From a virus: 28,396 bases of DNA. Each line of letters starts with the position of its first letter. Positions within the stretch are counted from its first letter, which is position 1. The stretch is from the IMG/VR virus record IMGVR_UViG_3300020446_001207, positions 1 to 28,396 of that record. One strand, given 5' to 3'. A program made the translations under genes and the position numbers. Below, one piece after another: positions 204-15,569 of this stretch. Under the pieces are notes generated by a model that searched no databases, was not told the DNA's origin, and was given only the letters and a program-made list of their open reading frames with translations.

Positions 204-232
204 ATTATAACTTCGTTCGGTTCCTTTGTCAA
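204..232 (-). promoter_or_regulatory. Consensus sigma70-type promoter before the edge radical SAM gene
   Basis: On the minus strand TTGACA (232-227) and TATAAT (209-204) are separated by exactly 17 bp, a perfect match to the bacterial sigma70 consensus in both boxes. Transcription would begin near 197-198, essentially at the ATG of the edge gene. The TGA stop of the upstream nitroreductase-like gene (231-229) lies inside the -35 box, so promoter and coding sequence are interlocked. The box sequences and spacing are seen directly; promoter activity is inferred. Confidence 0.8.
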
Positions 233-879
233 ATTATTAATTTTCTAGGAATAATTTTTTCATAGTGTTCACTATAAAATTTTCCGTCTGTATGTTTCTT
301 ACGATCTTGATACAAAGGATATCCAACTCCTAACATTACTTCAAGATCATATTTGTTTATTTTGTATGGTGATAGTATGTCTGGAAGGGCATCATGATCT
401 ATACAACGACAAAATCCAGTTTTCATTCCTATACTGTGTGCGGCTATACCAATAGCACTAGCTGATACTCCTATTTCTAAATTAGTCGTTACTCGATAAT
501 ATTGATCATCTGCTGGGCGACCTTTTTCTCTTTCTTCTCTCATTTTTGATTTTCTCTGTTTTCTTTTAATAAAAAATAAAAATAACAAATTAGCATCTGT
601 TTGTGGATTTTGTGTCCGACCTTCTTTTAACATTTTTTTTAATGAGGGTGACATATCTTGGGATTCTTCGGGAGAATTAGTAGCCGCTTTTACAAATTTT
701 TTTATGCTGTCTCTATTTCTTATACACACAATTTCAAATGTATCAAGATTTTGTTTTGTTGGTGTAGCATACCCTATTTCTAAAAGCCATTTTGCAGTAT
801 CGTCTGGCACTGCTTTTTCTAGATTAAAATTTCTTTGACATTTTTGAAATTCATTTACTAAGTCTAACATATCATCCAT
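229..879 (-). CDS. Nitroreductase-family-like flavoprotein (copy 2)
   Basis: 216 residues, about the usual length for the FMN-dependent nitroreductase fold. The N-terminal pattern (R-x-F near residue 17, then an LLEIGYATPT helix followed by QN) matches the family segment that contacts the FMN phosphate and ring. Later come NLEIGVSASAIGIAAHSIGM, the central helix typical of the family, then GFCRCI and LGVGYP, the usual last strand. The family performs NAD(P)H-dependent two-electron reductions, and some members act as dehydrogenases or dehalogenases. It shares the GFC-x-CI and GVGYP segments with the gene at 1563-2195, so the two are paralogues on either side of a 2OG-oxygenase-like gene. Its start overlaps that gene by 8 bases, suggesting coupled translation. 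Substrate unknown; the family call comes from motif pattern only. Confidence 0.72.
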   Translation of the reverse strand: MDDMLDLVNEFQKCQRNFNLEKAVPDDTAKWLLEIGYATPTKQNLDTFEIVCIRNRDSIKKFVKAATNSPEESQDMSPSLKKMLKEGRTQNPQTDANLLFLFFIKRKQRKSKMREEREKGRPADDQYYRVTTNLEIGVSASAIGIAAHSIGMKTGFCRCIDHDALPDILSPYKINKYDLEVMLGVGYPLYQDRKKHTDGKFYSEHYEKIIPRKLII

Positions 880-1561
880 TTTTCAATTCCTCTAATGTTC
901 CTTCGAATTGGATAAGCAAACCCATTTTCCAAGGACCTATAAGTTTTCCTGTACTATGAATATTATTACTATTAAAAACAATCATGTTCCCTGGCGTAAA
1001 ATCATACGCTGTGCCTGTAAGTCCGTAGAATAATTCAGGTGTGTGATTAGCAAAATCTAAATACTCACTATAAAAGTTTGTGTCTATAGGTTGGTCAATG
1101 CAGTCATATACTTTATCATCTTCCCAAGGTGTAAGTGGAACTTTTTTGTTAAAATCAAAATTGCCATTCTTTTTGATATCTTTTCTTTTTCCATACCATG
1201 TCTGTCCAAACCCATTATCAGTGTACTGATCAAAAATTATTAATTTTTGTTTAGGATTGTCTACTTCCAAATGTATTGGAATATTAACGTTCATTAATTG
1301 CCACGGTTCGTCACTGTCTACATGTAAACTATACAAGTTTTTATGTTTGTATATGTTTCCTCCTTGACCTTTATTAGTTTTAAAATACTTGCTAAGTATA
1401 GGATTTAAAACTTCATGTAGGTGCTTCCATGGATTATTAATTTTGACTACGTCAGGATTATTTGTTTTATGAACCTGTAAATCAGGGTTATTATCAAAAA
1501 ACTCTTTTATATATTTGCATACATCTAATGGTATACTATTTTCAAAACAAGTGTGTCGCAT
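872..1561 (-). CDS. 2-oxoglutarate/Fe(II) oxygenase-like protein (copy 2)
   Basis: 229 residues. The facial-triad pattern of Fe(II)/2-oxoglutarate oxygenases is visible as H80-x-D82 (YSLHVDSDE) and a distal H202 in the strand after PGNMIVFNSNN. A basic residue follows at K212, near where the 2OG-binding Arg/Lys is expected. A beta-rich jelly roll fits NVNIPIHLEV and KLIIFDQ. The layout (HxD, IPxHLE strand, HTxELFYG, G-x-MIVF, then distal His) parallels the protein at 3351-4088, suggesting homology. Such enzymes hydroxylate, desaturate or demethylate small molecules, sugars, peptides or nucleobases. One base separates it from the gene upstream, and it overlaps the next by 8 bases. Substrate unknown. 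Confidence 0.68.
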   Translation of the reverse strand: MRHTCFENSIPLDVCKYIKEFFDNNPDLQVHKTNNPDVVKINNPWKHLHEVLNPILSKYFKTNKGQGGNIYKHKNLYSLHVDSDEPWQLMNVNIPIHLEVDNPKQKLIIFDQYTDNGFGQTWYGKRKDIKKNGNFDFNKKVPLTPWEDDKVYDCIDQPIDTNFYSEYLDFANHTPELFYGLTGTAYDFTPGNMIVFNSNNIHSTGKLIGPWKMGLLIQFEGTLEELKNG

Positions 1562-1562
1562 T

Positions 1563-2195
1563 CTAAAACCTATATGTTACTACATCATCTAAATTTGCTC
1601 TTTTATGATTATGTTCCCAAAATACATCTTTCATCGTGTTTGTATTAGGATCTAAATATTTTTCTTCGTTACTAGGATATCCTACGCCCATCATTAAATC
1701 TACAGGGTATTCTAAGTTTAATTTTTTGCCTAATTCTTCCTTACGTTCTATACACTGGCAAAACCCAGTAGCAAATCCTTCTGCTTCTAAAGCAAACATA
1801 AGAGTCATTGCTACAATTCCCATTTCCATATAAATTACTCTGTTATCTTTGTATCCGTGAAAATCATATGCTGTAGGTGACCTATCCAACTTTTTTATTG
1901 CTTTGTTAGCATTTCTCATACTAAAAATTAAAAGGATAGGAGCTAGTGTTTGGGGATTGAAAGGATCGTCATTTACTGTAGTATGTGTGTCTCTTTTTGT
2001 GTGTAAAAAAATTTCTTTTCTTAATTCTTTATCACTATAATCTAACACTGTAATATTGTAAGGCATTCTTTTTTGTTTGCTAGGAACTTTCAATAATGCA
2101 TTATTAACAATATTTTTTATTTTATCTTTGTCTACCTTTCGAGTAGTCCAAGTAAAATTTGTTTTTCTACCTTCAAGCACTGTTTTAAAATCCAT
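1563..2195 (-). CDS. Nitroreductase-family-like flavoprotein (copy 1)
   Basis: 210 residues. The C-terminal half shows the nitroreductase pattern: a hydrophobic helix (VIYMEMGIVAMTLMFALEAEG), then TGFCQCI and MMGVGYP. The N-terminal half is more divergent: RKVDKDKIKNIVNNALLKVPS resembles the usual start helix with a PS-x-x-x-x-xPY turn in place of PS-x-x-N-x-QPW, so the FMN-binding residues may be altered. It is a paralogue of the protein at 229-879. Its ATG overlaps the end of the radical SAM gene upstream by 11 bases. An NAD(P)H- or deazaflavin-dependent reductase or dehydrogenase role is possible, but the divergent N-terminus leaves activity uncertain. Confidence 0.68.
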   Translation of the reverse strand: MDFKTVLEGRKTNFTWTTRKVDKDKIKNIVNNALLKVPSKQKRMPYNITVLDYSDKELRKEIFLHTKRDTHTTVNDDPFNPQTLAPILLIFSMRNANKAIKKLDRSPTAYDFHGYKDNRVIYMEMGIVAMTLMFALEAEGFATGFCQCIERKEELGKKLNLEYPVDLMMGVGYPSNEEKYLDPNTNTMKDVFWEHNHKRANLDDVVTYRF

Positions 2196-3354
2196 AATTA
2201 TTCTCCAAATATTCCACTAGTTCGGGATTAAAATCTTTTATATCTGTGTTATAAAATTTATCTAATTTTTTAGTTGTAGACAAAAACATTTCCCATTGTT
2301 CATTATCATATTTACCCTGTTTTATAAACGTGTTAATTAATCTTGTTGCTTTACTATTATCCTTATTTTTTTCTAGTACCCAATCTTTATAAGATTGCGG
2401 AGCACATTGCAAGGATAGATATTTAGGAAACATTACAAAATCTACAGACGTTTCATATCCTTTTTTATTAATTAAAAAATTTAGTGTTTTACTTAAATGG
2501 TTTGCAGTATATAAACTAATTGTACTATGAATTGCAATATTATTTTCACAATTTAACAAACTTTTATATATTTTTGCATTCTTAAAAACTTGCGTATGAT
2601 CAGCACCAACTCTTTGATAATCATTGCTTTTGTCATATGTATCTAAACTAACATTTATTTCTAACATTTTATATTTGTTTAGTTTTTCTACTATACTTTC
2701 ATTTGGAATGCTTGTGCCATTTGTAGCAATTTCTAAATGTATTTCATTTGGATTAGATCGTTGTTCAATATAGTCTAAAAATTTTAAAAAATTAGGTGAT
2801 ATAAAAGGTTCTCCCCCTAATAACTTGATGTAAACTAATCCTGAAAGATCAAGATTATCAAATTTATCAAAAGTTGGTTCTAACTTTTTATGTACTGTAT
2901 CATTTAAAAATTTATCTCTCGCTTGTAATTTACTGCTAAATTTGCTATCACACATACGGCATTGCAGATTACAAATATTGTCTATACTCATTTCAATATA
3001 TCTAATCTGATCAAAACTATCTGTATAACTGTCTTTTAAAAATTTGGAAAAATCTTCATTAGATCTAATTCTTAATGATCTTCTATTCTTAAAAAATTTT
3101 TTATTTTTTTCTTGTAGATAACACTTTCTGCATTCTGGACGCTGTTTGCCTGCTAACATGTCTTGTCTTAAATTTTTTAGATAAGGAGTGTTCATAGCTT
3201 CAATCCCTTGAGCTTTAATTTTATCTAAATTGACATCTATCACGTCTTCCGTAATTTGGTATCTACAGCATGGTTTTATCTTTTCATCCGGACGTACACA
3301 GAGATGAGTCCATGGTAAAATACAAAAAGCATTATTATCTAAAAAATTTTTCAT
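2185..3354 (-). CDS. Radical SAM protein with N-terminal SPASM/twitch-like module
   Basis: 389 residues. Residues 1-80 hold a cysteine module of SPASM type: C11 in FCILPW, a basic strand ending in C29-C30, then C75-x-x-C78 after an LRQDMLAG helix. Such cysteines usually bind an auxiliary iron-sulfur cluster. The radical SAM core follows with CNLQCRMC at 128-135 and a LLGGEPF segment, the GGE motif that binds the SAM amino group. In classical SPASM proteins this module is C-terminal; here it leads. The start overlaps the stop of the upstream gene in a 4-base ATGA. It is closest in layout to the genes at 9529 and 10881. The reaction is unknown; the family modifies peptides, sugars or cofactors by radical chemistry. 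Confidence 0.88.
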   Translation of the reverse strand: MKNFLDNNAFCILPWTHLCVRPDEKIKPCCRYQITEDVIDVNLDKIKAQGIEAMNTPYLKNLRQDMLAGKQRPECRKCYLQEKNKKFFKNRRSLRIRSNEDFSKFLKDSYTDSFDQIRYIEMSIDNICNLQCRMCDSKFSSKLQARDKFLNDTVHKKLEPTFDKFDNLDLSGLVYIKLLGGEPFISPNFLKFLDYIEQRSNPNEIHLEIATNGTSIPNESIVEKLNKYKMLEINVSLDTYDKSNDYQRVGADHTQVFKNAKIYKSLLNCENNIAIHSTISLYTANHLSKTLNFLINKKGYETSVDFVMFPKYLSLQCAPQSYKDWVLEKNKDNSKATRLINTFIKQGKYDNEQWEMFLSTTKKLDKFYNTDIKDFNPELVEYLENNYGF

Positions 3355-4088
3355 CTATCTACATCAATACTAGCAAAACCTATTATACTTCGTTTATATT
3401 CTGTGCTTACATCAGGCAACATTTTTTCTTTAAGGTACCAACTACTGCTGTGCCATCTGCGTGTATCAAAAACCATTGCAGTGCCTACTTCCCATTTATA
3501 TGCACTATGAAAAACTAAATCTGCATATTCTTTGTAATATTCTGTTCCTGGAGGATTGTATTTTAAAACTTCTTGATCAAAAATATAGTCATCTCTATAA
3601 TGAAATATCTCATCATTATCTTGATACCGCATTTCACCTTTCCTAAATTTTAATTTTCTTGGTATATTGCTTATAGTTTCATAATTAACTGTATAAGGTT
3701 GTTTACATGTCCATTCCAAAGGTATAATTATACCTAATACTACATAACAGTCATGTGTAATAAAATCTTTGTTAGGTTTCCAACTGTTTGGAAAACTTAA
3801 ATAATCCGTATGTAAGCCTGCAGGTTCGCCGCTGTGAAAATACTCCCAAGTCCAATCGTAATCTAATTTAAACTGATTGTTCCAATAATTAACAAGATCT
3901 TCTTTAGTTTTTTTACCAACGCTATTAAATTTATTAAAGTCATTACGTCCACTTTTTTTTGCATCTTTACTTTCATATACACTATTTGCTTCCTGCAAAT
4001 ATTTTAAAGGATCAAAACTTAATTTTACAGACCCGTATTTTGGTCTATGACTTTCGTATTCTTGTAAATTTTTAAAACCATCTTTCAT
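3351..4088 (-). CDS. 2-oxoglutarate/Fe(II) oxygenase-like protein (copy 1)
   Basis: 245 residues. H93-x-D95 (GLHTDYLSF) and H213 (FDTRRWHSSSW) match the HxD...H iron-binding triad. R233 in YKRSIIGF is placed to bind the 2OG carboxylate. Between them lies a beta-rich segment (VVLGIIIPLEW) and an HSAYKWEVGTAMVF strand just before the distal His, as in phytanoyl-CoA-hydroxylase-like folds. The N-terminal 60 residues are charged and unassigned. The start shares one base with the stop of the upstream radical SAM gene, and it overlaps the next radical SAM gene by 4 bases. Likely a hydroxylase or related oxidase in the pathway; substrate unknown. A cupin without oxygenase activity cannot be excluded. 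Confidence 0.7.
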   Translation of the reverse strand: MKDGFKNLQEYESHRPKYGSVKLSFDPLKYLQEANSVYESKDAKKSGRNDFNKFNSVGKKTKEDLVNYWNNQFKLDYDWTWEYFHSGEPAGLHTDYLSFPNSWKPNKDFITHDCYVVLGIIIPLEWTCKQPYTVNYETISNIPRKLKFRKGEMRYQDNDEIFHYRDDYIFDQEVLKYNPPGTEYYKEYADLVFHSAYKWEVGTAMVFDTRRWHSSSWYLKEKMLPDVSTEYKRSIIGFASIDVDR

Positions 4089-5203
4089 TATATTATTTCC
4101 TTGTAAACATCATTCACTTCATAGATACTGCCTGGTCGATTTTTTTCTAATTTAGAAGTCCAATGCATCAATTTTGTTTTAAGAGCAGGATTATATCTTG
4201 CTGACTTAATCATTCTAATTAAATTATTCACCCATGGCACACTTTTATAATTTGTTAAGTATTTTAACTTTTCATTAAGTATATTTGTTGGAATAGCATC
4301 TAGGGTTTGATGTGGTATTCCTTCTACCGGCCATACAGTTACGGTGTTTTTTTCTAAAAACCAAGGTGCCCAATCTTCTAGATTAGGTATGTTATATACA
4401 GTGGCAACAATACTGTATTCTACTTTATCTTTACCTAATACTTCTTCATACACTGCACAGTTTTTTTCTATAGTTGCCCAACTAGCACCATGTCTTATAT
4501 ATTCCATTGTTGGTCCTATTCCATCTAAACTTATTTCTACCCGGAGGTTTTCCCACTTGGATAATTTATCCATCCAGGTTTTGTTTGTATTGGTAGCATT
4601 AGTTGTAAATGATAAATCTAGTGTGTTGTTTAATCCTAAATCGCAACAATAATCTAAAAAATCATAAAGGTCTTGCTGTATACTAGGTTCTCCTCCTACA
4701 ACCATTACTTTTTTTAATTTAGACATATCTAAATTTTTATAATCTTTTACTGGCACACTAATCTCTAATTCTATACCTTGTTCCTTGGCAATCATACTAC
4801 TGTTTTTATAACCGCATGTACGACATTTTAAATTGCATAAATTACTAGGTCTATAATCCAAGTAAAGGATATTACTTAAACCTGGTTGCAAGATATCTTT
4901 ATCTTTCCAACTATCTATTAAATCTTGTACGTGCTCGTCTTGATGCAACAGTATACGTCTACTTAGATTTCCTACTCTTTCGTTTTTTCTACATACTTGA
5001 CAAGATTTTCTATATCCTTTGTGTTTTAACATTTTCTTTTTTATTTTTTGTAAATGTTCGCTATTAATATAATCCTTTATAGAACCTTTATGTATATCTC
5101 CGTTCCATTCACAACAGGGTGTGTTTCCTCCCATAACATTTCCGTGTTGCAGGTTTACCCAAGGAGCCCAACAATATGGCTTATGCACGTTCTTCTCTTT
5201 CAA
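4088..5203 (-). CDS. Radical SAM protein with N-terminal SPASM/twitch-like module, non-ATG start
   Basis: Up to 371 residues. The N-terminal cysteine module is C11 (YCWAPW), C30-C31, then C68-x-x-C71. The radical SAM motif CNLKCRTC is at 123-130 and a VVGGEP segment follows. No ATG precedes the conserved CWAPW segment. The possible starts are TTG at 5203, with AAGGA about 10 bases upstream, or GTG at 5188, which overlaps the TAA of the upstream PLP gene as GTGCATAA. The extent given uses the TTG. A non-ATG start would lower translation relative to neighbours. Function within the family is unknown. Confidence 0.87.
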   Translation of the reverse strand: MKEKNVHKPYCWAPWVNLQHGNVMGGNTPCCEWNGDIHKGSIKDYINSEHLQKIKKKMLKHKGYRKSCQVCRKNERVGNLSRRILLHQDEHVQDLIDSWKDKDILQPGLSNILYLDYRPSNLCNLKCRTCGYKNSSMIAKEQGIELEISVPVKDYKNLDMSKLKKVMVVGGEPSIQQDLYDFLDYCCDLGLNNTLDLSFTTNATNTNKTWMDKLSKWENLRVEISLDGIGPTMEYIRHGASWATIEKNCAVYEEVLGKDKVEYSIVATVYNIPNLEDWAPWFLEKNTVTVWPVEGIPHQTLDAIPTNILNEKLKYLTNYKSVPWVNNLIRMIKSARYNPALKTKLMHWTSKLEKNRPGSIYEVNDVYKEII

Positions 5204-6104
5204 CTTTGTTTAATCCTTTATCAGTACCACGTTCATCAAATACGCCTTCGATTAAAAACCTCAAAGGTGTACGCACACCAAATTGATGTTTACCTTTACC
5301 GTCTTTTAACCAACCTACATGTATACTGTCACTTTCTTCTAAATTAAAATCAGCACAAACTTTTTTATACAAATCTCCATAATTGCTCCACCAATAATCT
5401 GTTCCAAAATGTTTCATTGCTTCTACACCTAACCACATGTCACTTACATTAGCATAGGCAAAATCATTCATAATAGCAACAGGCCCATTGATACGTTCTC
5501 TAGTGTAGCGTATGCCTATACGCTGACTGCCCATTCCTAATGCTTTACTTAAACTTACACTTACACTTTGTATAGCAGGATGTTCTATATCAAACTCAAA
5601 ATTACGACACTGGCCAAACCAAGCACCGTCTATATGAACAGGAATTTGATGAGTGTAACAATGTCCTAACAGCTTGTCAAAATCATTGTGATAATTTGTA
5701 GTGATACAGCTAGGATAACTTACTATGAAAACATCACCTTGTTTAAGGTCACTATAGTGTGTTATTTCGTTTACTTTGAAGTCTGTTAAACGCCTATGAT
5801 ACTTGTATTCTCCCTTATAAACAGCTATATTACGCCCGTGTAGTTGGTGTAACTCATCTAACTGATGCGTTGTGCCCAGTATTGCATCTCGGCGTGTAAA
5901 AGCATCTAAACCTGTGTAACTTATATGTCTATGTGCTTTTATCCATTCATCTATAGTGTTTAAAAAAGTTTCTGTATATGCATGTGGATCTCTTGGATAT
6001 GTTTTCATATCCAAATTTTCTCTAAAGTTTGTAAACTTACTAAGGTACATTGGGCGTTGTCTACGAGTACCTAGCATATCAAATGTTATGTCTTCATACT
6101 TCAT
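5181..6104 (-). CDS. Fold-type-I PLP-dependent enzyme (aminotransferase-like)
   Basis: 307 residues, short for this fold (usually about 370-420). D159 in PVHIDGAWFG fits the aspartate that pairs with the pyridine nitrogen of pyridoxal phosphate. K187 in SVSLSKALGMGSQRIG fits the Schiff-base lysine, 28 residues later as in many members. GTTHQLDELHQLHG (77-90) fits the phosphate-binding and following helix region. Small C-terminal domain elements appear reduced after residue 230. The fold includes aminotransferases, desulfurases, decarboxylases and C-C bond lyases, so the reaction is open. An aminotransferase making an amino sugar or amino acid precursor would suit the neighbouring genes. It overlaps its upstream neighbour by 11 bases and its downstream one by 23. 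Confidence 0.75.
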   Translation of the reverse strand: MKYEDITFDMLGTRRQRPMYLSKFTNFRENLDMKTYPRDPHAYTETFLNTIDEWIKAHRHISYTGLDAFTRRDAILGTTHQLDELHQLHGRNIAVYKGEYKYHRRLTDFKVNEITHYSDLKQGDVFIVSYPSCITTNYHNDFDKLLGHCYTHQIPVHIDGAWFGQCRNFEFDIEHPAIQSVSVSLSKALGMGSQRIGIRYTRERINGPVAIMNDFAYANVSDMWLGVEAMKHFGTDYWWSNYGDLYKKVCADFNLEESDSIHVGWLKDGKGKHQFGVRTPLRFLIEGVFDERGTDKGLNKVEREERA

Positions 6105-7347
6105 ATTGATCTAACCACCGCCATAATTTTTTCCAATCAGTACCTCTACGTTTGTCTATATTGTCTAAAGTAGTTTTTAATGATTTAACCTTTTTTGGTT
6201 CATAAGGTTGTGCATTTACTTTTTTCCAAAAACCTTGAAGAAATCTTATTGTTCTAGGATCTGAATGGTTCTTGATAGAACGTTTGAACTGTTTGTCAAA
6301 AAATCCTTTAGGAAAAACTCCTACGTCCATGCCCGGACGACCACTAGCAAAACTCAAACTATGTTTTACTCGTCTAATTTTATTCCATTCCGCAACTTTT
6401 TTACACAAGTCTGGTAGTGTTTGCATTGTTAAACTAATAATTGTTCCGTGAATAAGTATGCTGATAGAATCGTATTCATTTAGTATTGTTAAAAAATTTT
6501 GTTCCCATTTTTTCATGTCTAATCCTGTTCTTATATATTCTTGCTGAGGACCCCAACAATCAAGACTACATACAATTTCAAAATTTTTAATTTTTCCTGT
6601 CTTCTGTAAATTCACTACTTTATCTAAAAGTTTCCGCATTCTTTTGTTTTCAACTTTTAAATTACTAAAAATTATAAAATTTGTATCAGGACAAGGATTA
6701 TTCTCAAAAAAATCTATATTTTGTTCAAATTCAGGTTGAAAAAAGGGCTCACCGCCTAATATTCTGTATTGAACAATATGCTTTGCATTTTTTTCCATCC
6801 ATTTCCAATGTTGCTTTAACATTTCAGGATACTGTTTTCTGCCTTCTTCCATCTCTTTAAATTCAAGCGGGTGTCTCAAATTAAATTTCTTTTCTTCTAC
6901 TTCCCACACTGTACTATATTCGCCACTGCAATATATACAATTTAAATTGCATAAATTGTTAAAATAAACTTCTACCAATCTAGGTGTCAATTTTATTGCA
7001 TTAGATTTTTCTTCAAGTTCTTTAGGAGCTAACCAATCTGGTTGGTTACTTGCATTTAAGTCCATTCTATCACTATGGCCGCCTGCAAGTTCTATGTCTC
7101 TGCAATACTCACATCCGTCTCCCGGCCATTGACCTTTCTGCATAGTTTGTCTGTGTAATAACTTAGTAGGTGTGTTGTGAAAGTTTTCATAATTTTTTGG
7201 TGTTAATTTATCTGATTTTACTCTATGACAACTATTTGTACTTCCTTCCATGAGTCTGATGGTGCTCCAAGTCCACTTGTACATACAAACAGGATCTTGT
7301 AAATTGTACTTGCTTAAAAATTTTGAATTGTATTTGTTATTTTTCAT
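6094..7347 (-). CDS. Radical SAM protein with divergent N-terminal cysteine module
   Basis: 417 residues. CNLNCIYC at 133-140 is the cluster motif, and ILGGEPFFQP is the SAM-binding GGE segment. The N-terminal module is present but altered: C21 in VCMYKW, a single C40 followed by His where others have a CC pair, and C79-x-x-C82. The loss of one of the paired cysteines may change auxiliary cluster ligation. A conserved-looking region rich in basic and aromatic residues ends the protein (KLWRWLDQYEV). It directly follows the PP-loop ATPase gene, sharing one base, and overlaps the PLP gene by 11. Reaction unknown. Confidence 0.88.
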   Translation of the reverse strand: MKNNKYNSKFLSKYNLQDPVCMYKWTWSTIRLMEGSTNSCHRVKSDKLTPKNYENFHNTPTKLLHRQTMQKGQWPGDGCEYCRDIELAGGHSDRMDLNASNQPDWLAPKELEEKSNAIKLTPRLVEVYFNNLCNLNCIYCSGEYSTVWEVEEKKFNLRHPLEFKEMEEGRKQYPEMLKQHWKWMEKNAKHIVQYRILGGEPFFQPEFEQNIDFFENNPCPDTNFIIFSNLKVENKRMRKLLDKVVNLQKTGKIKNFEIVCSLDCWGPQQEYIRTGLDMKKWEQNFLTILNEYDSISILIHGTIISLTMQTLPDLCKKVAEWNKIRRVKHSLSFASGRPGMDVGVFPKGFFDKQFKRSIKNHSDPRTIRFLQGFWKKVNAQPYEPKKVKSLKTTLDNIDKRRGTDWKKLWRWLDQYEV

Positions 7348-8033
7348 TATGTCAACCTATCAAATCCATACCATCTTTCTAAACAGAAAAAACAGTATCC
7401 ACAGTGTATTGGTTCACCTTTTTTTCTAAAGTATGGTGCAGTTTCACAACTAAAAGTATGCGGATATAATTTTTCCATCATATTATACTTGTCATACAAT
7501 TCTTTTACTGCTTTTTTATCTCCACCTGCAAAAAGAAATCCGCTGTCATCAAAATGAGGATGTGTAATATGAACATCTCTTTCTTTATCTCTGTTATCAA
7601 TTGTATACATTAACCTTGATAACGGGAATCCTAATCTTTCATGATTGTCAGTTACAAATTCTATTAACTTGTCTACTGGTGGATTCATTGTGATTCCACT
7701 GTACATACGGAAAATTTTATCATTTCTATTTGCTAACTTTTGCAAATTTTCTTGACCGTTAACATAATTTTCCATTGAGTGTGGAACTAATTTAGTGTAA
7801 TGTTTATAAGGGCGTTTGCCAGTTAAGTTTGCTACAATTTCAATTATTCTTTTTGCAGACTTGATATAATTATTTTTTAAATCAGTATCAAGTGTAATAC
7901 AAATAATATTGACATCATCTCTATCCTTAAACTTATCACATACTGCATAATAAACAATAGAACTATCAGCACCGCCACTAAGTTTTACAAGTAAATTATG
8001 TTTGCCTGGGGGTAAATCTTCTATTACACTCAT
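7347..8033 (-). CDS. PP-loop ATPase, QueC-like, with C-terminal zinc-type cysteines
   Basis: 228 residues from the chosen ATG. SGGADSS at 19-25 is the PP-loop that binds ATP and adenylates a carbonyl oxygen or similar group. C196, C211, C214 and C217, ending in LERWYGF, closely resemble the zinc site at the C-terminus of QueC (7-cyano-7-deazaguanine synthase). I prefer the ATG at 8033 over that at 8045: it has GGAG six bases upstream and forms an ATGA overlap with the preceding stop, whereas the earlier ATG has no ribosome site. No QueD or classical QueE is visible here, so preQ0 synthesis is not shown. An amide-, nitrile- or thio-forming step on another substrate is equally possible. Confidence 0.8.
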   Translation of the reverse strand: MSVIEDLPPGKHNLLVKLSGGADSSIVYYAVCDKFKDRDDVNIICITLDTDLKNNYIKSAKRIIEIVANLTGKRPYKHYTKLVPHSMENYVNGQENLQKLANRNDKIFRMYSGITMNPPVDKLIEFVTDNHERLGFPLSRLMYTIDNRDKERDVHITHPHFDDSGFLFAGGDKKAVKELYDKYNMMEKLYPHTFSCETAPYFRKKGEPIHCGYCFFCLERWYGFDRLT

Positions 8034-8929
8034 GCTGTACTCCATTTTTCTACTATTGCATCTAGTTTACAAGGGCAAGCCTCGTAGTTACATAAAATAG
8101 GATCTTCTGGTAATGTATATCCTGTAAATAGATTGCCAATACTACCGCCAACGTTTTTCGTACAACGTTTCATGTTACCGTCAGGTTCTATCATTAATCT
8201 TTTAATTCCTGCTGTACACATATAGCCTTTAAATTTATGTAATCCTTGATCTAAAACTGTCATAAACTCTTTGTACTGTCCATCAAAATGTAACATTCTA
8301 GGTATTTCCCAATTTATTCCAAAATCCTTCATTTTGTTAAAATAGTTAGTTTTTATCCATTCGCGTTGTTCTTTAGTGTATTTAAAATATTCAGTACCGT
8401 GGATAGACTTTCTTACAAACTTTGGAGTTATTTCTATATTAAGTTTTTTTAATCTTTCATATAATGCTTTAGCACGTTCAAAATTTTCTGGTACAATCAT
8501 TAATGGCACACTTACACTTGCTTTGTGTTGCATGATTTCGGCTACTTGATAAAAATGATCATCATCAGCTTCTTCATAATGCCAACTTAAAAACACAAAA
8601 GCTCTGCGTGTTTTAAATTTTTCCCAATATCTTAATGTGCGACTGGCATTGGTGCCAAATTCAACAAACACTCTGTCATCACTTATTGTATCTACAAACT
8701 CTTGAAATTTAGGCCAAACTGTAGGTTCACCGCCCAGGACTTCTATGTATAAATTTTTATTCTTTGTTTTTAATTTTTCTATTAAATCCAAATAAGGTTT
8801 CCAGTCTTTAGGCCAACGGCTAGTTCCGTCTCTATGATAGTCACTACAATAACTGCAATTAAAATTACAGACATTATGCATAAACATAGTAATTATACAA
8901 CAATCTAAATTTTCGTTAGTTATGTGCAT
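8030..8929 (-). CDS. Radical SAM protein with C-terminal SPASM-like domain
   Basis: 299 residues. CNFNCSYC at 21-28 and VLGGEP define the radical SAM core, which begins close to the N-terminus. A C-terminal SPASM-type tail follows: C238, the strand RLMIEPDGNMKRC ending at C256, a GSIGNL turn, then C280, C285 and C287. This is the classical arrangement, in contrast to the N-terminal modules of most neighbours. The ATG has AAGG about 9 bases upstream and overlaps the SGNH gene by 14 bases. It is paired by a 4-base overlap with the PP-loop ATPase, so the two may act in consecutive steps. Confidence 0.88.
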   Translation of the reverse strand: MHITNENLDCCIITMFMHNVCNFNCSYCSDYHRDGTSRWPKDWKPYLDLIEKLKTKNKNLYIEVLGGEPTVWPKFQEFVDTISDDRVFVEFGTNASRTLRYWEKFKTRRAFVFLSWHYEEADDDHFYQVAEIMQHKASVSVPLMIVPENFERAKALYERLKKLNIEITPKFVRKSIHGTEYFKYTKEQREWIKTNYFNKMKDFGINWEIPRMLHFDGQYKEFMTVLDQGLHKFKGYMCTAGIKRLMIEPDGNMKRCTKNVGGSIGNLFTGYTLPEDPILCNYEACPCKLDAIVEKWSTA

Positions 8930-9542
8930 TTATTCTTACCTTCATAGATCTTGCTAATACTTCGTGTGCTATCGGTCCTGGATGTCTGTCATCTGTTGCT
9001 TTAGGAAGATCATCTGTTAAAGTTTGAAAACACAAATCGATTACATGTACTCTATTCCATTTGGGAGGATTTTGCACATACTCTCTGTTAATAGTAAAAT
9101 GATAATTTTTTACACCTAAACTATCTAGTTGATATTTTGCATAATTCATACATGTCCACATCTGATGCTGTCCATCATAATCACTGTGTGCTCTTTTTAT
9201 ATGATACCATTTATCTTTTGGCAGGGGCATATATGTTTTTGTTGCTGGCAACCCTTGCATTATAGAAATTTCGTCATCTAAAATAATACAATCTCTATTA
9301 GTATAAGTCCACAATATTACAGCAATGTCATCATGCAAAAAATCACAGCGTTGTATTGAATATAAAATTTCTTTATTAGACGCACCTGCAATACCCATAT
9401 TAATAGTTCTTCTTTTTAACAACTTTGCTAGTTTTTTTGGCCAGGCAATGTCACTAGGGTTACTCTCAGGATAAGGACAATCTTCTAATGTATGTCCATG
9501 TGTATAACTGCATCCGAAAGCTACTAATCTAGGCTTTTTCAT
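8916..9542 (-). CDS. SGNH/GDSL-hydrolase-like protein
   Basis: 208 residues from the ATG at 9542, which has AAGGA 8 bases upstream; upstream codons only offer a TTG without support. Four SGNH blocks can be picked out: FGCSYT (Ser12 as nucleophile), GIAGASN (G53 and N56 for the oxyanion hole), LWTYTNRD (N82 region) and D184-x-x-H187 (DDRHP) for the catalytic Asp and His. The family includes esterases and O-acetyl transferases or hydrolases acting on polysaccharides. In this context, acyl or acetyl chemistry on a sugar is plausible. There is no signal peptide, so it should act in the cytoplasm. The start lies inside the end of the radical SAM gene upstream. Confidence 0.75.
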   Translation of the reverse strand: MKKPRLVAFGCSYTHGHTLEDCPYPESNPSDIAWPKKLAKLLKRRTINMGIAGASNKEILYSIQRCDFLHDDIAVILWTYTNRDCIILDDEISIMQGLPATKTYMPLPKDKWYHIKRAHSDYDGQHQMWTCMNYAKYQLDSLGVKNYHFTINREYVQNPPKWNRVHVIDLCFQTLTDDLPKATDDRHPGPIAHEVLARSMKVRINAHN

Positions 9543-10881
9543 CAAACAAATCCTTGTATTGCGGTACAATGTCTAATATATTTTGACCACGTACTTCATC
9601 AAGTCTTTTTGTTTGATCAATAAAATGAGGCAACCACTCTGTAGAATAATCTTCGCTCATCATAAATTTTTCAACACCATTTAAAACTTTGACAAAGTTA
9701 TTTTTTACCTTATCTTCAAACTCTGTTGTCATTACCCAATCTTTGTGTTCTTGATAATACTGTTTTACTTGCTCTTTTAAATAAGGCGGCAAAACTTTAA
9801 CATTAAAATACTTTGGACTATGACACATATGATGCGTAATCACTGGTCTCATCCCAGTCAGCGGATTAAATTTTGTTAAACCACTTTCTACAAGTTTCCA
9901 TTTCATAAATTCAGGCATATGAAAAACATTGTAAGGTGTTACTGTAAATGCAAACCAGGCTTTCAAATTTATACGATCATTTGTTTGTAATGTCATCATA
10001 TTTTTGTACACAGCATCAAACTTTGCAGGAGTTCTTTGATAATTAAAAACATCTCCTGTACCATCTATGCTTACACCGATACGTATTTGTTTAAACTGTT
10101 CCCAAAGATATACCAACCTATCCGGAACCATTGTAAGATTACTATTGTATTCTAATTGGATAGTTTTGCTTTTGCCACTAGCTACAAGTCTTTCTAAACT
10201 TTCTTGGTGTTCTTTTATAATTAACGGCTCTCCACCTACTATGTATAGTTTTTTTGCGTTAGGTGCGTACTGCTCAAAATTACTCCAATACCTGTTATTG
10301 CTTTGAAACCAATCATATTGATTTGTATGCCATTTACCTTTTGCATTTTTTGTAAGTTTAATTTTTTCATGTGTATCTTTATATTCTGTTTTTCCGGTTA
10401 TCTTAACAAAATCGTCATACCATTTATGACTATCAGTTGGTCCGCACATTCTACATTTTAGATTACAAAAGTTTCCGTATCTTATATCTATAAAATCTAC
10501 AGGAACTTTTTTTGGATCTATTGTACCGTCTTCGGCTGTGTGTTCTTTAACGCTTTCAAGATTTACATTGCCAAACCATTTTCCCCAATCTTCATTTTCA
10601 TATTCTCTACGACTTTTGATTCCATTTATTTCTTCTTGGCGGCAACGTTCGCACTCAGGATGCCATTCTCCTTTCATCATAGATTGGCGTACTTCTTTTA
10701 ACATTTCAGCATTTCGAGCCTCGTCCCAATCGTCTTTACCTGCGTTATAAGGAGTACCATCTTTTTTCTTCATGATACCACGTTGAGGACTGTAACTATT
10801 AGTATTACAACAGATACGCAAATCTCCATTATTACGCATGTTGATACTGTTCCAAGGAAGAGGACAAAAAGTACAAGCCAT
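9529..10881 (-). CDS. Radical SAM protein with N-terminal SPASM/twitch-like module (paralogue of next gene upstream)
   Basis: 450 residues. N-terminal cysteine module: C3, C6 (FCPLPW), C24-C25 and C77-x-x-C80. Radical SAM motif CNLKCRMC at 139-146, then IVGGEP. It parallels the 469-residue protein at 10881-12290 along its length: the EDG turn before the core, the CxxxCxxC followed by a D-S pair, and a shared FNVKVLP / LNVKVLP segment near residue 360. The two are therefore tandem paralogues. The start shares one base with the stop of that gene (TAATG), which favours coupled translation and similar amounts of both proteins. Substrate unknown; a heterodimer or two successive steps are possible. 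Confidence 0.9.
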   Translation of the reverse strand: MACTFCPLPWNSINMRNNGDLRICCNTNSYSPQRGIMKKKDGTPYNAGKDDWDEARNAEMLKEVRQSMMKGEWHPECERCRQEEINGIKSRREYENEDWGKWFGNVNLESVKEHTAEDGTIDPKKVPVDFIDIRYGNFCNLKCRMCGPTDSHKWYDDFVKITGKTEYKDTHEKIKLTKNAKGKWHTNQYDWFQSNNRYWSNFEQYAPNAKKLYIVGGEPLIIKEHQESLERLVASGKSKTIQLEYNSNLTMVPDRLVYLWEQFKQIRIGVSIDGTGDVFNYQRTPAKFDAVYKNMMTLQTNDRINLKAWFAFTVTPYNVFHMPEFMKWKLVESGLTKFNPLTGMRPVITHHMCHSPKYFNVKVLPPYLKEQVKQYYQEHKDWVMTTEFEDKVKNNFVKVLNGVEKFMMSEDYSTEWLPHFIDQTKRLDEVRGQNILDIVPQYKDLFDEKA

Positions 10882-12290
10882 TATATTTCCTTAAAAATAT
10901 CTTTCATTTCTGGAAAAGTGTCGGCAAAAGTTATGCCACGCTGTTTATCACACAATGATAAAAATTCTTGCATCTCAGGTAACCTAACACTCCAATCTTC
11001 GCTGTCCATAAAATTTAATATTCCTTCTAATCGTTTAATTCCGTATTCAGCACTACGCCACTTGTCATAATCTACTTTTCCCTTGTGCCATGTTGGAACT
11101 CCTAGTTCCCAATTCTTTTCCCACCAAGGATACCATTCTTCATATTTTTTATGACATTCTTTTTTAAACCATTTAGGTAAAACTTTTACATTTAGATGTC
11201 CTGGCCAATATACAAAATGCTGACTGATGCCACCTGCTCCAAACGGCCACATATTTACTTTCTTAAATCCTTGTTCAAGTTTCCATTGTATAAGATCAGG
11301 CAAATAATATATGTTTAGAGCCTGTACAGCAGACGCTATGGTAACTTCTACATTATTTGTAGTTTCATTATCTAATCTATGAAACGTGTTGACTTGATTT
11401 GTCCAATCACTAGGATAACGTATATAATCATTCATTTTCTTAATACTATCAATTGAATAATGAAAACGCACTAATTTAAAATGGCTCCAAAGTTCAAATA
11501 AATCTTCACGCCATTCTACGCCATTAGAATTATATCTCAATTCTAAGTCTTTAGCATAACCCTTCTTAATAGCATGTTCCAGTATTTCATAATGTTCTTC
11601 AATAATTAAACTTTCGCCTCCTGCAAAATATATCTGTTGCATACTAGGCATTTGTTCATAAAACTGTTTCCAAAACGTAGGATTTTGTTTATGCCAATTA
11701 TAACTACTTCCGTTTGTTGATCCTTTATCTTTCCATTGCATTATTTCTTTTAATGATTCATTTTTTACAGCAGGAAATATTGCTTTGTAATCTTTTATCC
11801 AACCTGAACTATCATGAGGTGAACACATAACACATGCTAATTGGCATTTTGTGCCGAAACGTAGATCAATATATGCTAGATTAGGGGGTACTGATCCATC
11901 TTCATTTGTCTCTTGTAGAATTTTATCCATATCTACTCGTTGGCTCCAGTAGTTTGTTTCCCACATGCGTTTACTTCTATGTCCTGCGGCTTCTTCTTTG
12001 TAACACTTCAAACAACTAGGCGGCTGTTCGCCATTAAGCATTTGCAACCTAACATTTTTCATGTAGTCGCTATTCCATGCAGATTCAAAATCACTTACGT
12101 TGAGATTGTTTGGCTTACCATCATCTGTCTTAAGTATACCAACTTGACCGCCATGTTCTTTGTCATTTGTAGGTCCGACACTACTTGCATTGGCTGTACA
12201 GCATACTCGCATACTACCGTCAGGTCTAGTGCTTAGATGTACCCACGGTAGGATACAAAAAGTTTTTGATGGTGTTTTGTAATCAGGCAT
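10881..12290 (-). CDS. Radical SAM protein with N-terminal SPASM/twitch-like module, GGES variant
   Basis: 469 residues, the longest complete radical SAM protein here. N-terminal module: C12 in FCILPWVHL, C30-C31, then C93-x-x-C96 after a long insert. The core motif is CQLACVMC at 149-156. The SAM-binding segment reads FAGGES instead of the usual GGEP. The C-terminal part is rich in Trp and Tyr (KKYEEWYPWWEKNWELG). A 22-base gap separates it from the gene upstream, one of the few gaps in the chain, and I see no strong Shine-Dalgarno sequence in it. Tandem paralogue of the gene at 9529-10881. Confidence 0.9.
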   Translation of the reverse strand: MPDYKTPSKTFCILPWVHLSTRPDGSMRVCCTANASSVGPTNDKEHGGQVGILKTDDGKPNNLNVSDFESAWNSDYMKNVRLQMLNGEQPPSCLKCYKEEAAGHRSKRMWETNYWSQRVDMDKILQETNEDGSVPPNLAYIDLRFGTKCQLACVMCSPHDSSGWIKDYKAIFPAVKNESLKEIMQWKDKGSTNGSSYNWHKQNPTFWKQFYEQMPSMQQIYFAGGESLIIEEHYEILEHAIKKGYAKDLELRYNSNGVEWREDLFELWSHFKLVRFHYSIDSIKKMNDYIRYPSDWTNQVNTFHRLDNETTNNVEVTIASAVQALNIYYLPDLIQWKLEQGFKKVNMWPFGAGGISQHFVYWPGHLNVKVLPKWFKKECHKKYEEWYPWWEKNWELGVPTWHKGKVDYDKWRSAEYGIKRLEGILNFMDSEDWSVRLPEMQEFLSLCDKQRGITFADTFPEMKDIFKEI

Positions 12291-12312
12291 AATATACGTA
12301 CTTATCTAATTT

Positions 12313-13461
12313 TTAATGAGAAAGCTCTGCTCCTGAAAGAAACATAACTTGCTCTGGACATAAACTTGTTTTATAATCAGTATTATGTAATTTATCTACA
12401 ATATCAGTAGTGCGTTTTAAGGATTTTTGTTTTTCTATGTCTTCTACTTCAAGACATTTTTTAACATATGTATAAACATTTTTTAATCCATGTTTTTCAG
12501 CGTCTTGCAATAATTTTAACTTCATACTTTTTGGAGCGAATTTTACATCTAACTCTGAATCAAGAGGTCTAATCTGCACATCAACATATGGTCCTATGTC
12601 TTTGGATTTGCACCAAATAACATAATTTTCTAAATCTAACATATTGTAAAATTGTAGACAAAAACTTATGTTTAATGGTTTAAATTCTTCATATGAATTT
12701 AATAAATCTATATTTTTATCAAAAGTTTTCCAATCTGCTTGATGTCTAATGTAGTTGTATATTTTTCCTACACCATCTATACTTACTGTAATTTTAGTTT
12801 TTTTAAATTTTTTAATTTTATCTAATAATTTTTTATTAATTTTCGTAGCATTTGTAGTAAATTTTATTTCTAAATTTTTTGCATAATCATTATCTATACA
12901 CCAATCAATAACCTCAAGAAAGTATTTACAAGCAAATGGTTCTCCTCCTGTTACTTTCAATATTTCTAAACCTTCTGAAATTAATTTTTTAGTGTGTTGC
13001 ACTTTTTTTTCTGCTTGTGAATTTGACTTAAAATGAGGATTGGATCTTTGAATATGGTGAGGCATATCATAAGTTTCAACACTAGAATATAATTTTTCTA
13101 ATTGCGAACTAGATGAAGGTATACACATTCTACAAGCTAAATTACAAGTGTTAGTAAATTTTATGTCTAAATATTTTATCTTAACTTGTTTATAATCACA
13201 ATTACGAAATTCTTTTAGTGCCTGTTGCCTATGACTGACTATATTGTTAGACTCATGATCTTTACATATTTTACATATTAAAGGAAATTTACCTTGTATA
13301 AACTCTTGTCTACTTTTTTTGTGTACAGGACTATTTAGACCCTGTTCAATAGTAATTGTTCTCCATTGAGGATCATTGTTATATGTAACACAGCAAGGAT
13401 GTACATATGACGTTGTTCCTATACACTGATGCATCCAAAGATATGGACATTTTAATCTCAT
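12313..13461 (-). CDS. Radical SAM protein with N-terminal SPASM/twitch-like module
   Basis: 382 residues, starting with a short leader straight into the cysteine module: C5 (KCPYLW), C13, C23-C24 and C63-x-x-C66. The core motif CNLACRMC is at 106-113, followed by VTGGEPF. The protein is notably lysine-rich. The ATG overlaps the stop of the upstream radical SAM gene by 4 bases (ATGA). The next gene begins after a 22-base gap. The family is secure, the substrate unknown. Confidence 0.88.
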   Translation of the reverse strand: MRLKCPYLWMHQCIGTTSYVHPCCVTYNNDPQWRTITIEQGLNSPVHKKSRQEFIQGKFPLICKICKDHESNNIVSHRQQALKEFRNCDYKQVKIKYLDIKFTNTCNLACRMCIPSSSSQLEKLYSSVETYDMPHHIQRSNPHFKSNSQAEKKVQHTKKLISEGLEILKVTGGEPFACKYFLEVIDWCIDNDYAKNLEIKFTTNATKINKKLLDKIKKFKKTKITVSIDGVGKIYNYIRHQADWKTFDKNIDLLNSYEEFKPLNISFCLQFYNMLDLENYVIWCKSKDIGPYVDVQIRPLDSELDVKFAPKSMKLKLLQDAEKHGLKNVYTYVKKCLEVEDIEKQKSLKRTTDIVDKLHNTDYKTSLCPEQVMFLSGAELSH

Positions 13462-14534
13462 TTAAATTGCTCCGTAAAAGGGTCAAACTCGGCTCCGCAT
13501 TTCATGGCGCATACTTTTAGTTTTCCTAAACTACAACTTTCATATTTCCAGCTTCGTTGAATAGTATTAAAGATGCCTGTGTCGAATACTTCTTTTAAAC
13601 CGTTCCTTGCATCTATAGCATCTTTGCCGCCTGCAATATCTATATGTGTCCAAATTTGTTCTACATAAGGATCTTTATGCCACCATTTATACATACGTCC
13701 AGCAGTCCAACAGCAAGGCATTGCCAAACCTTCTGCTGTAATGTATATTTCTTTTTTATCCACACACTTAGGTTTAATTGGTGCAACATCATAATATGCA
13801 TCCATGGATCCATATTTTTCAATAATTACATCTTGTTTTTTAAGTGCTTTGTTTTGATATTTAGGATCAGGTTTTTTAAGTTCTGTAGAAGCTTTTCCTT
13901 TTTTATTTACTGCTTGGTGCGTTTCTTTCTTTTTGGAATCTTGCGTAATAAATCTACCTGTTTTTTTTGCAACAAACTTTTCGAATCCCCATTCTTTACT
14001 TAATGCTTCTGCTTCTTCAACTTGATGTTGATTATGTTCAAAAATTAAAAAATCCCATCTAGCTCTGCCTCCACCTTTTACAAATGCTTTCATCGCACGT
14101 TCAACGTTGTCCCAAACAACGCCTTGGCGGTATAAGTGATTTGTAGATCGTAAGCCATCAACGCTAAAGATAACAGCACCACTACCAGCAAAAATTTTTG
14201 CCAATCCCATCCACCAGTTTTCATCTCTTGCTCCGCCGTTAGTATTCATACTTAGCCACATTTTAGGGTTATGTTTTCTAAAATAACGGAATATTTCAAG
14301 TGTATCTTTCGCAACAATAGGATCACCTAAGTTGCCACACATATACATTGTTTTTAACTGAGATATAAATGCAGGACTAAAAATTCTTTTACAGTCTTCT
14401 AATGACAGTTCATCTAAATTTATATGTGGATTAATACCCTCACCGTTCATGTTCCTATCACACATTGGACAGGCGGCCTGGCAGTTTTGTGTTACTTCTA
14501 AATGAACAGTTTGTATATCTTCATATCTATACAT
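13458..14534 (-). CDS. Radical SAM/SPASM protein with GNLGDP variant and Lys-rich insert
   Basis: 358 residues. CQAACPMC at 18-25 is the cluster motif. The GGE position is occupied by CGNLGDP (66-72), a variant seen in a distinct radical SAM subgroup. VIFSVDGL and the R-Q-G-x-x-W-D-N segment are typical of SPASM enzymes. C-terminal cysteines C257, C274-C275, C334, C342 and C346 fit a SPASM domain binding auxiliary clusters. Residues 198-235 form a lysine-rich, probably disordered insert between core and SPASM domain. It is first of the radical SAM genes in transcription order and overlaps the 74-residue gene by 8 bases. Substrate unknown. Confidence 0.88.
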   Translation of the reverse strand: MYRYEDIQTVHLEVTQNCQAACPMCDRNMNGEGINPHINLDELSLEDCKRIFSPAFISQLKTMYMCGNLGDPIVAKDTLEIFRYFRKHNPKMWLSMNTNGGARDENWWMGLAKIFAGSGAVIFSVDGLRSTNHLYRQGVVWDNVERAMKAFVKGGGRARWDFLIFEHNQHQVEEAEALSKEWGFEKFVAKKTGRFITQDSKKKETHQAVNKKGKASTELKKPDPKYQNKALKKQDVIIEKYGSMDAYYDVAPIKPKCVDKKEIYITAEGLAMPCCWTAGRMYKWWHKDPYVEQIWTHIDIAGGKDAIDARNGLKEVFDTGIFNTIQRSWKYESCSLGKLKVCAMKCGAEFDPFTEQFK

Positions 14535-14751
14535 CTAATACTAACTTTACAGTTTTCCCAGGCCCTACTTTACTTGGTAAATCGCCATACTGCTCAATAT
14601 ACCATTCAACCACAGCTCTATACCAGTTATGACTGTTGTGATGGGCTTTTTGATTAAACTGCCATATGTTATTGTTTGTAGCCTGCATAGTGCTTAATGC
14701 CCTAGCACTTTCCTTTTGCAGTTCTCGTAAATTAAGTGATTCTATTGTCAT
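14527..14751 (-). CDS. Small protein of unknown function (74 residues)
   Basis: Not recognised. The ATG overlaps the stop of the methyltransferase-like gene in a 4-base ATGA, and its own stop overlaps the next radical SAM gene by 8 bases, so it is very likely translated. It is probably helical in residues 5-25 and 38-54. A His/Asn/Trp-rich middle (KAHHNSHNWYRAVVEW) and a C-terminal PGKTVKLVLDV follow. It has no cysteine, so it lacks the usual features of a thioether peptide precursor. Position next to a SPASM enzyme allows a role as partner, adaptor or carrier for radical SAM chemistry, but nothing in the sequence proves it. Confidence 0.65.
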   Translation of the reverse strand: MTIESLNLRELQKESARALSTMQATNNNIWQFNQKAHHNSHNWYRAVVEWYIEQYGDLPSKVGPGKTVKLVLDV

Positions 14752-15569
14752 TTTTTACCAATTAACATAAACCTTTTATATCCCCAAAGGTCCTTCTCTC
14801 CTTCGTAAAATATTTCTTTAAATTTAAATTTTTTCTTCATAGAATCTATACTTGTTACACAGTTTATATGTTCTGGTATATCAAATAAGTTATTACTTTG
14901 TATAGCAATAACACTATTTGTTTTAATTTTATAAAACCATTCTTCACTCATATGTTCTGTACTAGTATTTACAATTAAATCGGCACTGATATTTTTATTA
15001 AAAGTTTCACCATTACCCTTTACAAGAGGTACTACACAATGGCTTTCATACTGTGTAATATCTAAAATGTCTTGTGTACATGATTTCATTTTCCAGTTTT
15101 CTATTAGATTGTTGTTAAATATTTCGTCACTAATTTTACCTGCATTTTCATCAAAGTCTATAGTAGTAATGTTATCATAAGAAATACCAAGTGCATCTAA
15201 ATAAAGTCTAAGTTGTCCGTACCAACCAGCTAATAAAATAATATTACTATAATGACTGTTTATTTTTTTTAGCTCTTCAGATATCCAAATTTTACTTTCA
15301 ACTTGTCCTCTGCTGAATCCGTCTTGCAGTGCTATAGGATCATACCCGTATCTAAAATATTTGTGAAATATATCAAATACTTGATCAGGAGCAAATTTAC
15401 GTATGGTTCCTATAAATTCAATCATGCCTTTTTGATTCGTAGTATTAATAACAGGATTATCAGCATACAAAGATTTTTCTAAAAAGGCCATAAAGGTTTT
15501 TGCCTGATTATTGCCAGTATATTCAAAGTATCTATGTAAACCTCTAATCCAGTTGAGAGTTGATTCCAT
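14748..15569 (-). CDS. Class I SAM-dependent methyltransferase-like protein
   Basis: 273 residues. The stretch NIILLAGWYGQ (109-119) resembles motif I of the Rossmann-type SAM-binding fold with a G-W-Y-G loop. ITTIDFDEN follows with the acidic residue expected at the end of beta-2 (D138 or D140). ADLIVNTSTEHM (about 195-206) fits beta-4 with the catalytic-face residues. The first 80 residues look helical and unassigned. Conserved-looking SRGQVESKIWI precedes motif I; I recall similar proteins in marine myoviruses. Substrate unknown: a sugar, protein or small molecule are all possible. It overlaps its upstream neighbour by 26 bases. Confidence 0.68.
   Translation of the reverse strand: MESTLNWIRGLHRYFEYTGNNQAKTFMAFLEKSLYADNPVINTTNQKGMIEFIGTIRKFAPDQVFDIFHKYFRYGYDPIALQDGFSRGQVESKIWISEELKKINSHYSNIILLAGWYGQLRLYLDALGISYDNITTIDFDENAGKISDEIFNNNLIENWKMKSCTQDILDITQYESHCVVPLVKGNGETFNKNISADLIVNTSTEHMSEEWFYKIKTNSVIAIQSNNLFDIPEHINCVTSIDSMKKKFKFKEIFYEGEKDLWGYKRFMLIGKK

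Follow-up and report, generated by a model that had tools for sequence, protein, structure and literature searches.

A PP-loop ATPase gene and a radical S-adenosylmethionine (rSAM) gene overlap in the virus record IMGVR_UViG_3300020446_001207, which belongs to a marine virus of bacteria. Here we describe the PP-loop protein as a member of the QueC superfamily, by predicted fold and metal-site residues, that probably activates a different molecule from that of QueC. The window analysed is the entire record, 28,396 bases long, which may be a fragment. Both open reading frames (ORFs) lie on the minus strand. The rSAM gene, of family c1, occupies 8030 to 8929 and encodes 299 amino acids with a CNFNCSYC motif, and the PP-loop gene occupies 7347 to 8045. 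The initial annotation read the pair in the frame of preQ0 synthesis, where the rSAM enzyme QueE feeds QueC, and suspected a different substrate. The preQ0 pathway is not supported. Coupling of the two protein families is supported at the family level, and the PP-loop gene is an exchangeable accessory of a conserved gene module. As the most likely outcome of its chemistry we tentatively propose that it converts a carboxylate to an amide within a pathway tailoring a sugar or small molecule.

Motifs and predicted fold of the PP-loop protein

The PP-loop protein is 232 residues long, or 228 if started at the ATG at 8031 to 8033. This fifth codon (Met5, from 8033) is the likelier start, and with it the stop and start codons of the two genes overlap as ATGA at 8030 to 8033. 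The overlapping pair is thus real where it was first annotated. The homologous junction in contig L039 shows the same ATGA; the two proteins encoded there share 77% and 46-49% identity with those of the window. Single-sequence searches give weak matches only, to QueC, TilS, NAD synthase and QatC. Because Pfam and PDB searches with the one protein are too weak, the family was studied as an alignment of 28 members. Invariant in it are SGG..S, Y33, T51, K177, S199-C200, C215, C218, C221 and E223. The window protein carries SGGADSS at residues 23-29 (an SGGxDS loop is found in 27 of the 28 members), GITMNPP, DKK and SCE-x14-CGYCFFCLER. The four invariant C-terminal cysteines, C200-x14-C215-xx-C218-xx-C221, form a QueC-type site as had been proposed, although the x14 spacing is longer than the x7 of three comparison QueCs (canonically x7-x8).

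The AlphaFold2 model has a mean predicted local distance difference test (pLDDT) score of 89.7. Its top VIA-align match is QueC 3bl5 (Z 13.2, 163 residues, 3.2 A), followed by Cap9 (13.1), QueC 2pg3 (12.7), QatC (11.9) and LarE (11.7), with Z differences below 1 treated as ties. The alignments with QueC, Cap9 and QatC extend through the C-terminal cysteine region. Profile-profile comparison against a set of eight QueC-type proteins, taken from bacterial and archaeal metagenome-assembled genomes (MAGs), matches QueC with 97-98% probability and is strongest over the same region. Foldseek alone places the thiolase NcsA first and both thiolase and TilS above QueC.

These matches raise the reading that the protein is a thiolase like TtuA, NcsA or LarE, whose cysteines would bind an iron-sulfur cluster. 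The best single profile match among PDB sequences is also NcsA (6scy, E 6e-5), and LarE is among the structural neighbours. However, the 6scy match covers only the generic N-terminal ATP-binding half, and the C-terminal cysteine arrangement aligns with QueC, QatC and Cap9, so we regard sulfur transfer as very unlikely. The QueC superfamily is preferred because the VIA-align, cysteine and profile comparisons agree on it, while the generic ATP-binding half explains the thiolase matches. Profile and structural comparison did not clearly assign the protein to any PP-loop family with another known function. The QueC-like ATPase of the initial annotation therefore holds at the level of predicted fold and metal-site residues.

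The protein is nevertheless not a canonical QueC. Libby et al. describe canonical QueC by SGGxDS, YxQxHxxE, VPxRN, YPDC and a C(x)8CxxCxxC site, and report Y35, R99, Y131 and Y189 as essential in E. coli QueC (PMC13329287). Simple pattern counts were set against those of eight comparison QueCs. A VPxRN-like pattern occurs in one of the 28 family members and in all eight QueCs, a YPD-type pattern in none against six of eight, and SCY in none against seven of eight. SCE and a GhTxN-type loop are each present in 26 of the 28; a loose Y.Q pattern (7/28) is uninformative. In place of the QueC substrate and ATP motifs the window protein has LDTDLKNN, no VPxRN, GITMNPP and SCE. It scores 14.4 bits against TIGR00364 (cut-off 150.3) and 18.6 bits against PF06508 (cut-off 22), although some family members exceed the latter cut-off, such as the one in L025 at 25.3 bits. 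With YxQxHxxE, VPxRN and YPDC gone, SCY turned to SCE and scores below the cut-offs, canonical QueC is ruled out. What the family shares with QueC (7-cyano-7-deazaguanine synthase) is the PP-loop fold, SGGxDS, a conserved lysine, the C-terminal four-cysteine site and a length of about 230 residues; its own marks are the GhTxNPP loop and SCE. This loss of substrate-recognition residues is why the protein, a QueC cousin, probably activates a different molecule.

Cap9 of the type IV cyclic oligonucleotide-based antiphage signalling system (CBASS) and QatC of qatABCD are likewise QueC-superfamily members with diverged roles. Cap9 shares CE at the first metal-site cysteine, and QatC the longer cysteine spacing. 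The window protein lacks the base-binding motifs of Cap9 (YxQ, RN, YxDC). It also lacks the length and extensions of QatC, scoring 18.3 bits against NF041925 (cut-off 280). The context of the family is phage-borne, whereas that of Cap9 and QatC is anti-phage. A search for CD-NTase or QatABD partners, confined to clustering and an incomplete set of Pfam scans, revealed none. No model of the WbpG-type N-acetyl sugar amidotransferases, a family marked by a CxxC(x)6CxC motif, is among the NCBIfam matches at E 1.

QueD is missing from the window, as first reported, and no scanned ORF is FolE, which weighs little alone since the record may be a fragment. Twelve large related virus contigs, which may themselves be incomplete, include QueD in three and FolE in five, the two lying close together in one of them (G010). 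TGT and a full-length canonical QueC match are absent from all twelve; hosts may supply enzymes. A nucleobase or nucleoside modification related to preQ0 or 7-deazaguanine, for phage DNA or host tRNA, could draw on the QueC-superfamily fold, the metal-site residues and these FolE and QueD genes. It would lack the residues on which E. coli QueC depends (PMC13329287), TGT and a full-length canonical QueC in all twelve contigs and QueD in nine of them, and the rSAM protein is not QueE; we consider it very unlikely.

The radical SAM protein and its link to the PP-loop family

The c1 protein is a twitch/SPASM-like enzyme and not QueE. It falls below every NCBIfam cut-off seen: the closest model is that of the STM4011 family (57.5 bits, cut-off 200), and the QueE models TIGR03365 and TIGR03963 give 20.9 and 31.5 bits (cut-offs 206 and 260). 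Its tail, as read from the sequence, is CX12GX4C and then CX4CXC, with C238, C280, C285 and C287 invariant and C256 nearly so. The SPASM tail of the initial annotation is accordingly real and conserved in its cysteines, but is better named twitch/SPASM-like. The model (pLDDT 88.7) matches BlsE best (Z 17.6), then SkfB (16.3), SuiB (15.1), DesII (15.0), MoaA (14.6) and QueE (11.1); EpeE and anSME are also among the closest folds. BlsE is the radical SAM decarboxylase of cytosylglucuronic acid (PMC3715490). BlsE, DesII, BtrN and SkfB resemble c1 in fold, including a C-terminal region like that of an auxiliary cluster, although c1 is only 13% identical to BlsE. QueE, a small rSAM enzyme that lacks C-terminal auxiliary-cluster cysteines, is ruled out by the scores, the conserved C-terminal cysteines and the lower Z.

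The link between the two families is seen well beyond the window. Viral PP-loop genes adjoin an rSAM gene on either side in 74 of 85 cases (61.8 expected, p 0.0002), and PP-loop genes on MAG contigs have an rSAM gene upstream in 8 of 11 (3.4 expected, p 0.0002), where the null shuffles PP-loop labels among the non-rSAM genes of the same islands and the p-values ignore shared ancestry. All twelve large contigs hold both twitch-rSAMs and the PP-loop family, with up to 17 twitch-rSAM matches per contig, about ten of them above the curated cut-off. The two families are also fused. One ORF of L060 (14228-16720) joins a twitch-rSAM (residues 4-428) to a PP-loop domain (584-827). The fusion, found at L060, L142, L143 and L144, comprises three divergent sequences of 830-836 residues that are 71-76% identical, and its reading frame is unbroken in two contigs besides that of L060. 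The suggested rSAM and PP-loop link is thus upheld for the families. The literature searched holds no description of this association and no paper that combines PP-loop, QueC, phage and radical SAM. A different fusion, a single ORF with two tandem N-twitch radical SAM domains, occurs in L067 (3780-6452) and as an 889-residue frame in G009 and G010.

The particular pair is another matter. Orthologues of the c1 protein (65-78% identity) are found at 22 loci on 19 contigs, and a PP-loop gene directly follows in two contigs only, the window and L039, with another gene in the other 17. The two genes are therefore paired mostly locally, and a specific conservation of their pairing is not supported. 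The steady neighbours of c1 are a twitch-rSAM, located ahead of it in 16 of these 19 contigs, and a pyridoxal 5'-phosphate (PLP) enzyme.

The two genes may be functionally unlinked and stand side by side because cassettes are shuffled within an island for host recognition that is hypervariable. The rarity of the adjacency favours this, as does the PP-loop protein (median identity 42%), which is far more divergent than the rSAM core (70-76%). A published passage on pelagimyophages describes just such an island: their host recognition cluster, situated between VrlC and gp14, is large and non-syntenic and combines tail fibres and glycosyltransferases with rSAM cassettes that come and go (PMC7029224). 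Against it stand the fusion of the same two families, the adjacency above the shuffled expectation and the ATGA junction kept in L039. The explanation suits the specific pair well and the families less, and overall it is unlikely.

The island, its module and the distribution of the family

The genes from 229 to 17,705 form an island that lies entirely on the minus strand, with short overlaps or gaps except for one gap of 213 bases, and holds eight radical SAM genes. Tail-fibre and virion-structural matches, tail-fibre PHROGs among them, lie in the right-hand part of the window. No tRNA was found in the window, and a promoter and terminator scan of it was uninformative.

Module counts rest on 15 dereplicated loci. 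The core consists of the N-twitch-type radical SAMs Tw469 (10881..12290; 14 loci, median identity 76%) and Tw450 (9529..10881; 15 loci, 70%), the c1 rSAM (15 loci), the predicted PLP fold-type I enzyme (5181..6104; 15 loci, 76%) and a predicted 2-oxoglutarate (2OG)/Fe(II) oxygenase, 2OGa (3351..4088; HxD...H motif, 13 loci). Median core identities are 70-76%, except for 52% in the oxygenase. The PLP assignment is from a motif only (SLSKALG), the protein having no Pfam, PDB-sequence or GenBank-phage match. A PP-loop protein most like that of the window occurs in 10 of the 15 loci.

The other island genes surround this core. Tw417 (6094..7347), whose start overlaps the PP-loop stop as TAATG, Tw371 (4088..5203) and Tw389 (2185..3354) are N-twitch radical SAMs that score 213.5, 217.3 and 255.6 bits against NF033640 (cut-off 170). 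Nitroreductase-family flavoproteins are encoded at 1563..2195 and 229..879, and a second predicted 2OG/Fe(II) oxygenase, 2OGb, between them (872..1561; by motif, no Pfam match). An SGNH-hydrolase-like protein (8916..9569; by motif, no Pfam match) lies between Tw450 and c1. Beyond Tw469 are the N-twitch-type Tw382 (12313..13461), the c4 radical SAM (13458..14534; PHROG 21308), a conserved 74-residue small protein (14527..14751), a methyltransferase predicted from sequence (14748..15569; no Pfam or PHROG match) and a predicted glycosyltransferase (15544..17160; weak PF13641, E 0.01).

The small protein, whose ORF is below usual length cut-offs, has relatives in 471 viral loci. It is 57-78% conserved with 23 invariant columns, and belongs to no Pfam or PHROG family. 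It follows a methyltransferase in 37 of 42 distinct loci and precedes a c4 rSAM in 24. Vibrio phage 1.121.O gives a weak match (E 0.03) that is judged to be chance, as no rSAM is annotated nearby. As an obligate PP-loop substrate the small protein is rejected; it is missing in 7 of the 12 PP-loop-bearing large contigs, and the PP-loop gene is missing in three of eight contigs picked for carrying it.

Modification of a protein or peptide is a reading on which this small protein bears. The PP-loop enzyme, like Cap9 or as proposed for QatC, would ligate a group to a polypeptide, for example a small peptide or the N-terminus of a tail fibre, that the twitch/SPASM rSAMs would modify as well. Cap9 and QatC are among the nearest folds, and SCE resembles the CE motif of Cap9 (PMC13329287). 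Peptides are frequent substrates of SPASM/twitch rSAMs, the folds of SkfB, SuiB, EpeE and anSME are close to the c1 model, the island adjoins tail-fibre-type genes, and the module includes the conserved small protein. The nucleobase motifs of Cap9 are absent, however, the small protein and the PP-loop often occur apart, and the partial searches revealed no CD-NTase or QatB-like partner. We hold this reading to be unlikely, though a good deal less so than sulfur transfer.

The PP-loop family is a widespread branch of the QueC superfamily without a name, encoded in at least 318 viral loci. The related contigs are T4-like, since 11 of the 12 large ones carry gp23-type capsid genes. No match was found in 50,697 GenBank phages with three members (window, L008, L108) as queries, and so no cultured model phage was found. 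In L102-L110 and L061-L063 the family member has no rSAM nearby and stands by itself next to a gene for the terminase large subunit or for head completion. Among 11 MAGs with a family member, 10 hold a strong separate QueC as well (E 3.4e-46 or better). The MAG contigs L024, L027 and L028 (the last from the NAT137 Chloroflexi MAG) may be mis-binned phage DNA, to judge by what genes they carry and, in L028, by the match to the small protein on the same contig. Bdellovibrionia contigs are therefore the only good cellular evidence. There (L025, L026, L029) chromosomal cassettes combine PP-loop, twitch-rSAM and c4-type rSAM genes, with a B12-rSAM in some and paired membrane proteins without a Pfam family. 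A UDP-GlcNAc 2-epimerase gene adjoins one Bdellovibrionia member.

Related islands also hold UDP-sugar dehydrogenase, ATP-grasp and aminotransferase genes. Carbamoyltransferase and tryptophan halogenase genes lie in or near some of them (L071 6470-7954; L087 3434-4939). One T4-like ocean genome is described as carrying 12 rSAM genes (PMC5332604). In the passages concerned, such genomes and the pelagimyophage cluster (PMC7029224) resemble the present islands as tail-fibre-associated variable regions of T4-like marine phages with glycosyltransferases and rSAM cassettes. Neither the family of PP-loop proteins nor the module, the fusions or the small protein is described in those passages.

Proposed chemistry and its meaning

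If it behaves as other PP-loop enzymes do, QueC and Cap9 among them, the protein, as a zinc-type ATP pyrophosphatase, would adenylate an oxygen in an acidic group of its substrate, most likely a carboxylate, with pyrophosphate leaving. Ammonia or an amine would then attack the adenylate and displace AMP, to give an amide or amide linkage. The PP-loop enzyme may thus provide an exchangeable tailoring step in a phage pathway dominated by twitch/SPASM radical SAM enzymes, in which PLP, 2OG-oxygenase, nitroreductase, methyltransferase and glycosyltransferase steps would also take part. Computation shows the predicted fold and cysteine site, the motif loss, the family-wide tie to rSAMs with its fusions, and the module; the chemistry, the metal, the substrate class and a role at the surface are what we infer. 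The product would more likely be a decorated sugar or small molecule of the virion or host surface than a 7-deazaguanine. The sugar or tailoring reading is suggested because tailoring enzymes recur in the islands and the c1 model is closest to BlsE.

Several observations weigh against amide formation in such a pathway. The Z scores of SkfB and SuiB are close to that of BlsE, so c1 may instead act on a peptide. The matches to NcsA-type thiolases and to TilS in sequence searches would allow thiolation. The adjacency statistics carry the limit of shared ancestry, and the window-type PP-loop is absent or replaced in 5 of the 15 module loci. At 15 of 86 loci the PP-loop gene has no rSAM within the fetched stretch, and some of these genes lie beside terminase or head genes. 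The readings weighed here are not mutually exclusive, so their confidences need not add up to one. Conversion of a carboxylate to an amide stays the most likely of them, on a footing that is still provisional.

Of the auxiliary genes carried by viruses, queC, queD and queE are reported to be some of the most common (PMC9301287), and QueC-like genes are taken in virus surveys as evidence of preQ0 synthesis. Some such calls could be wrong, because some members of the present family pass PF06508 without the QueC substrate signature. The family adds a widespread branch to a superfamily that has already been re-used for protein modification in immunity, and the rSAM-PP-loop fusions offer a single protein for direct study of the coupled chemistry. 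It is possible, if not yet probable, that the T4-like phages of the sea possess a modular machine for biosynthesis that is so far undescribed. In it many N-twitch rSAMs, exchangeable and sometimes rSAM-fused QueC-superfamily ligases, PLP enzymes and oxygenases would together produce, while the phage infects its host, a decoration or metabolite of a new class.

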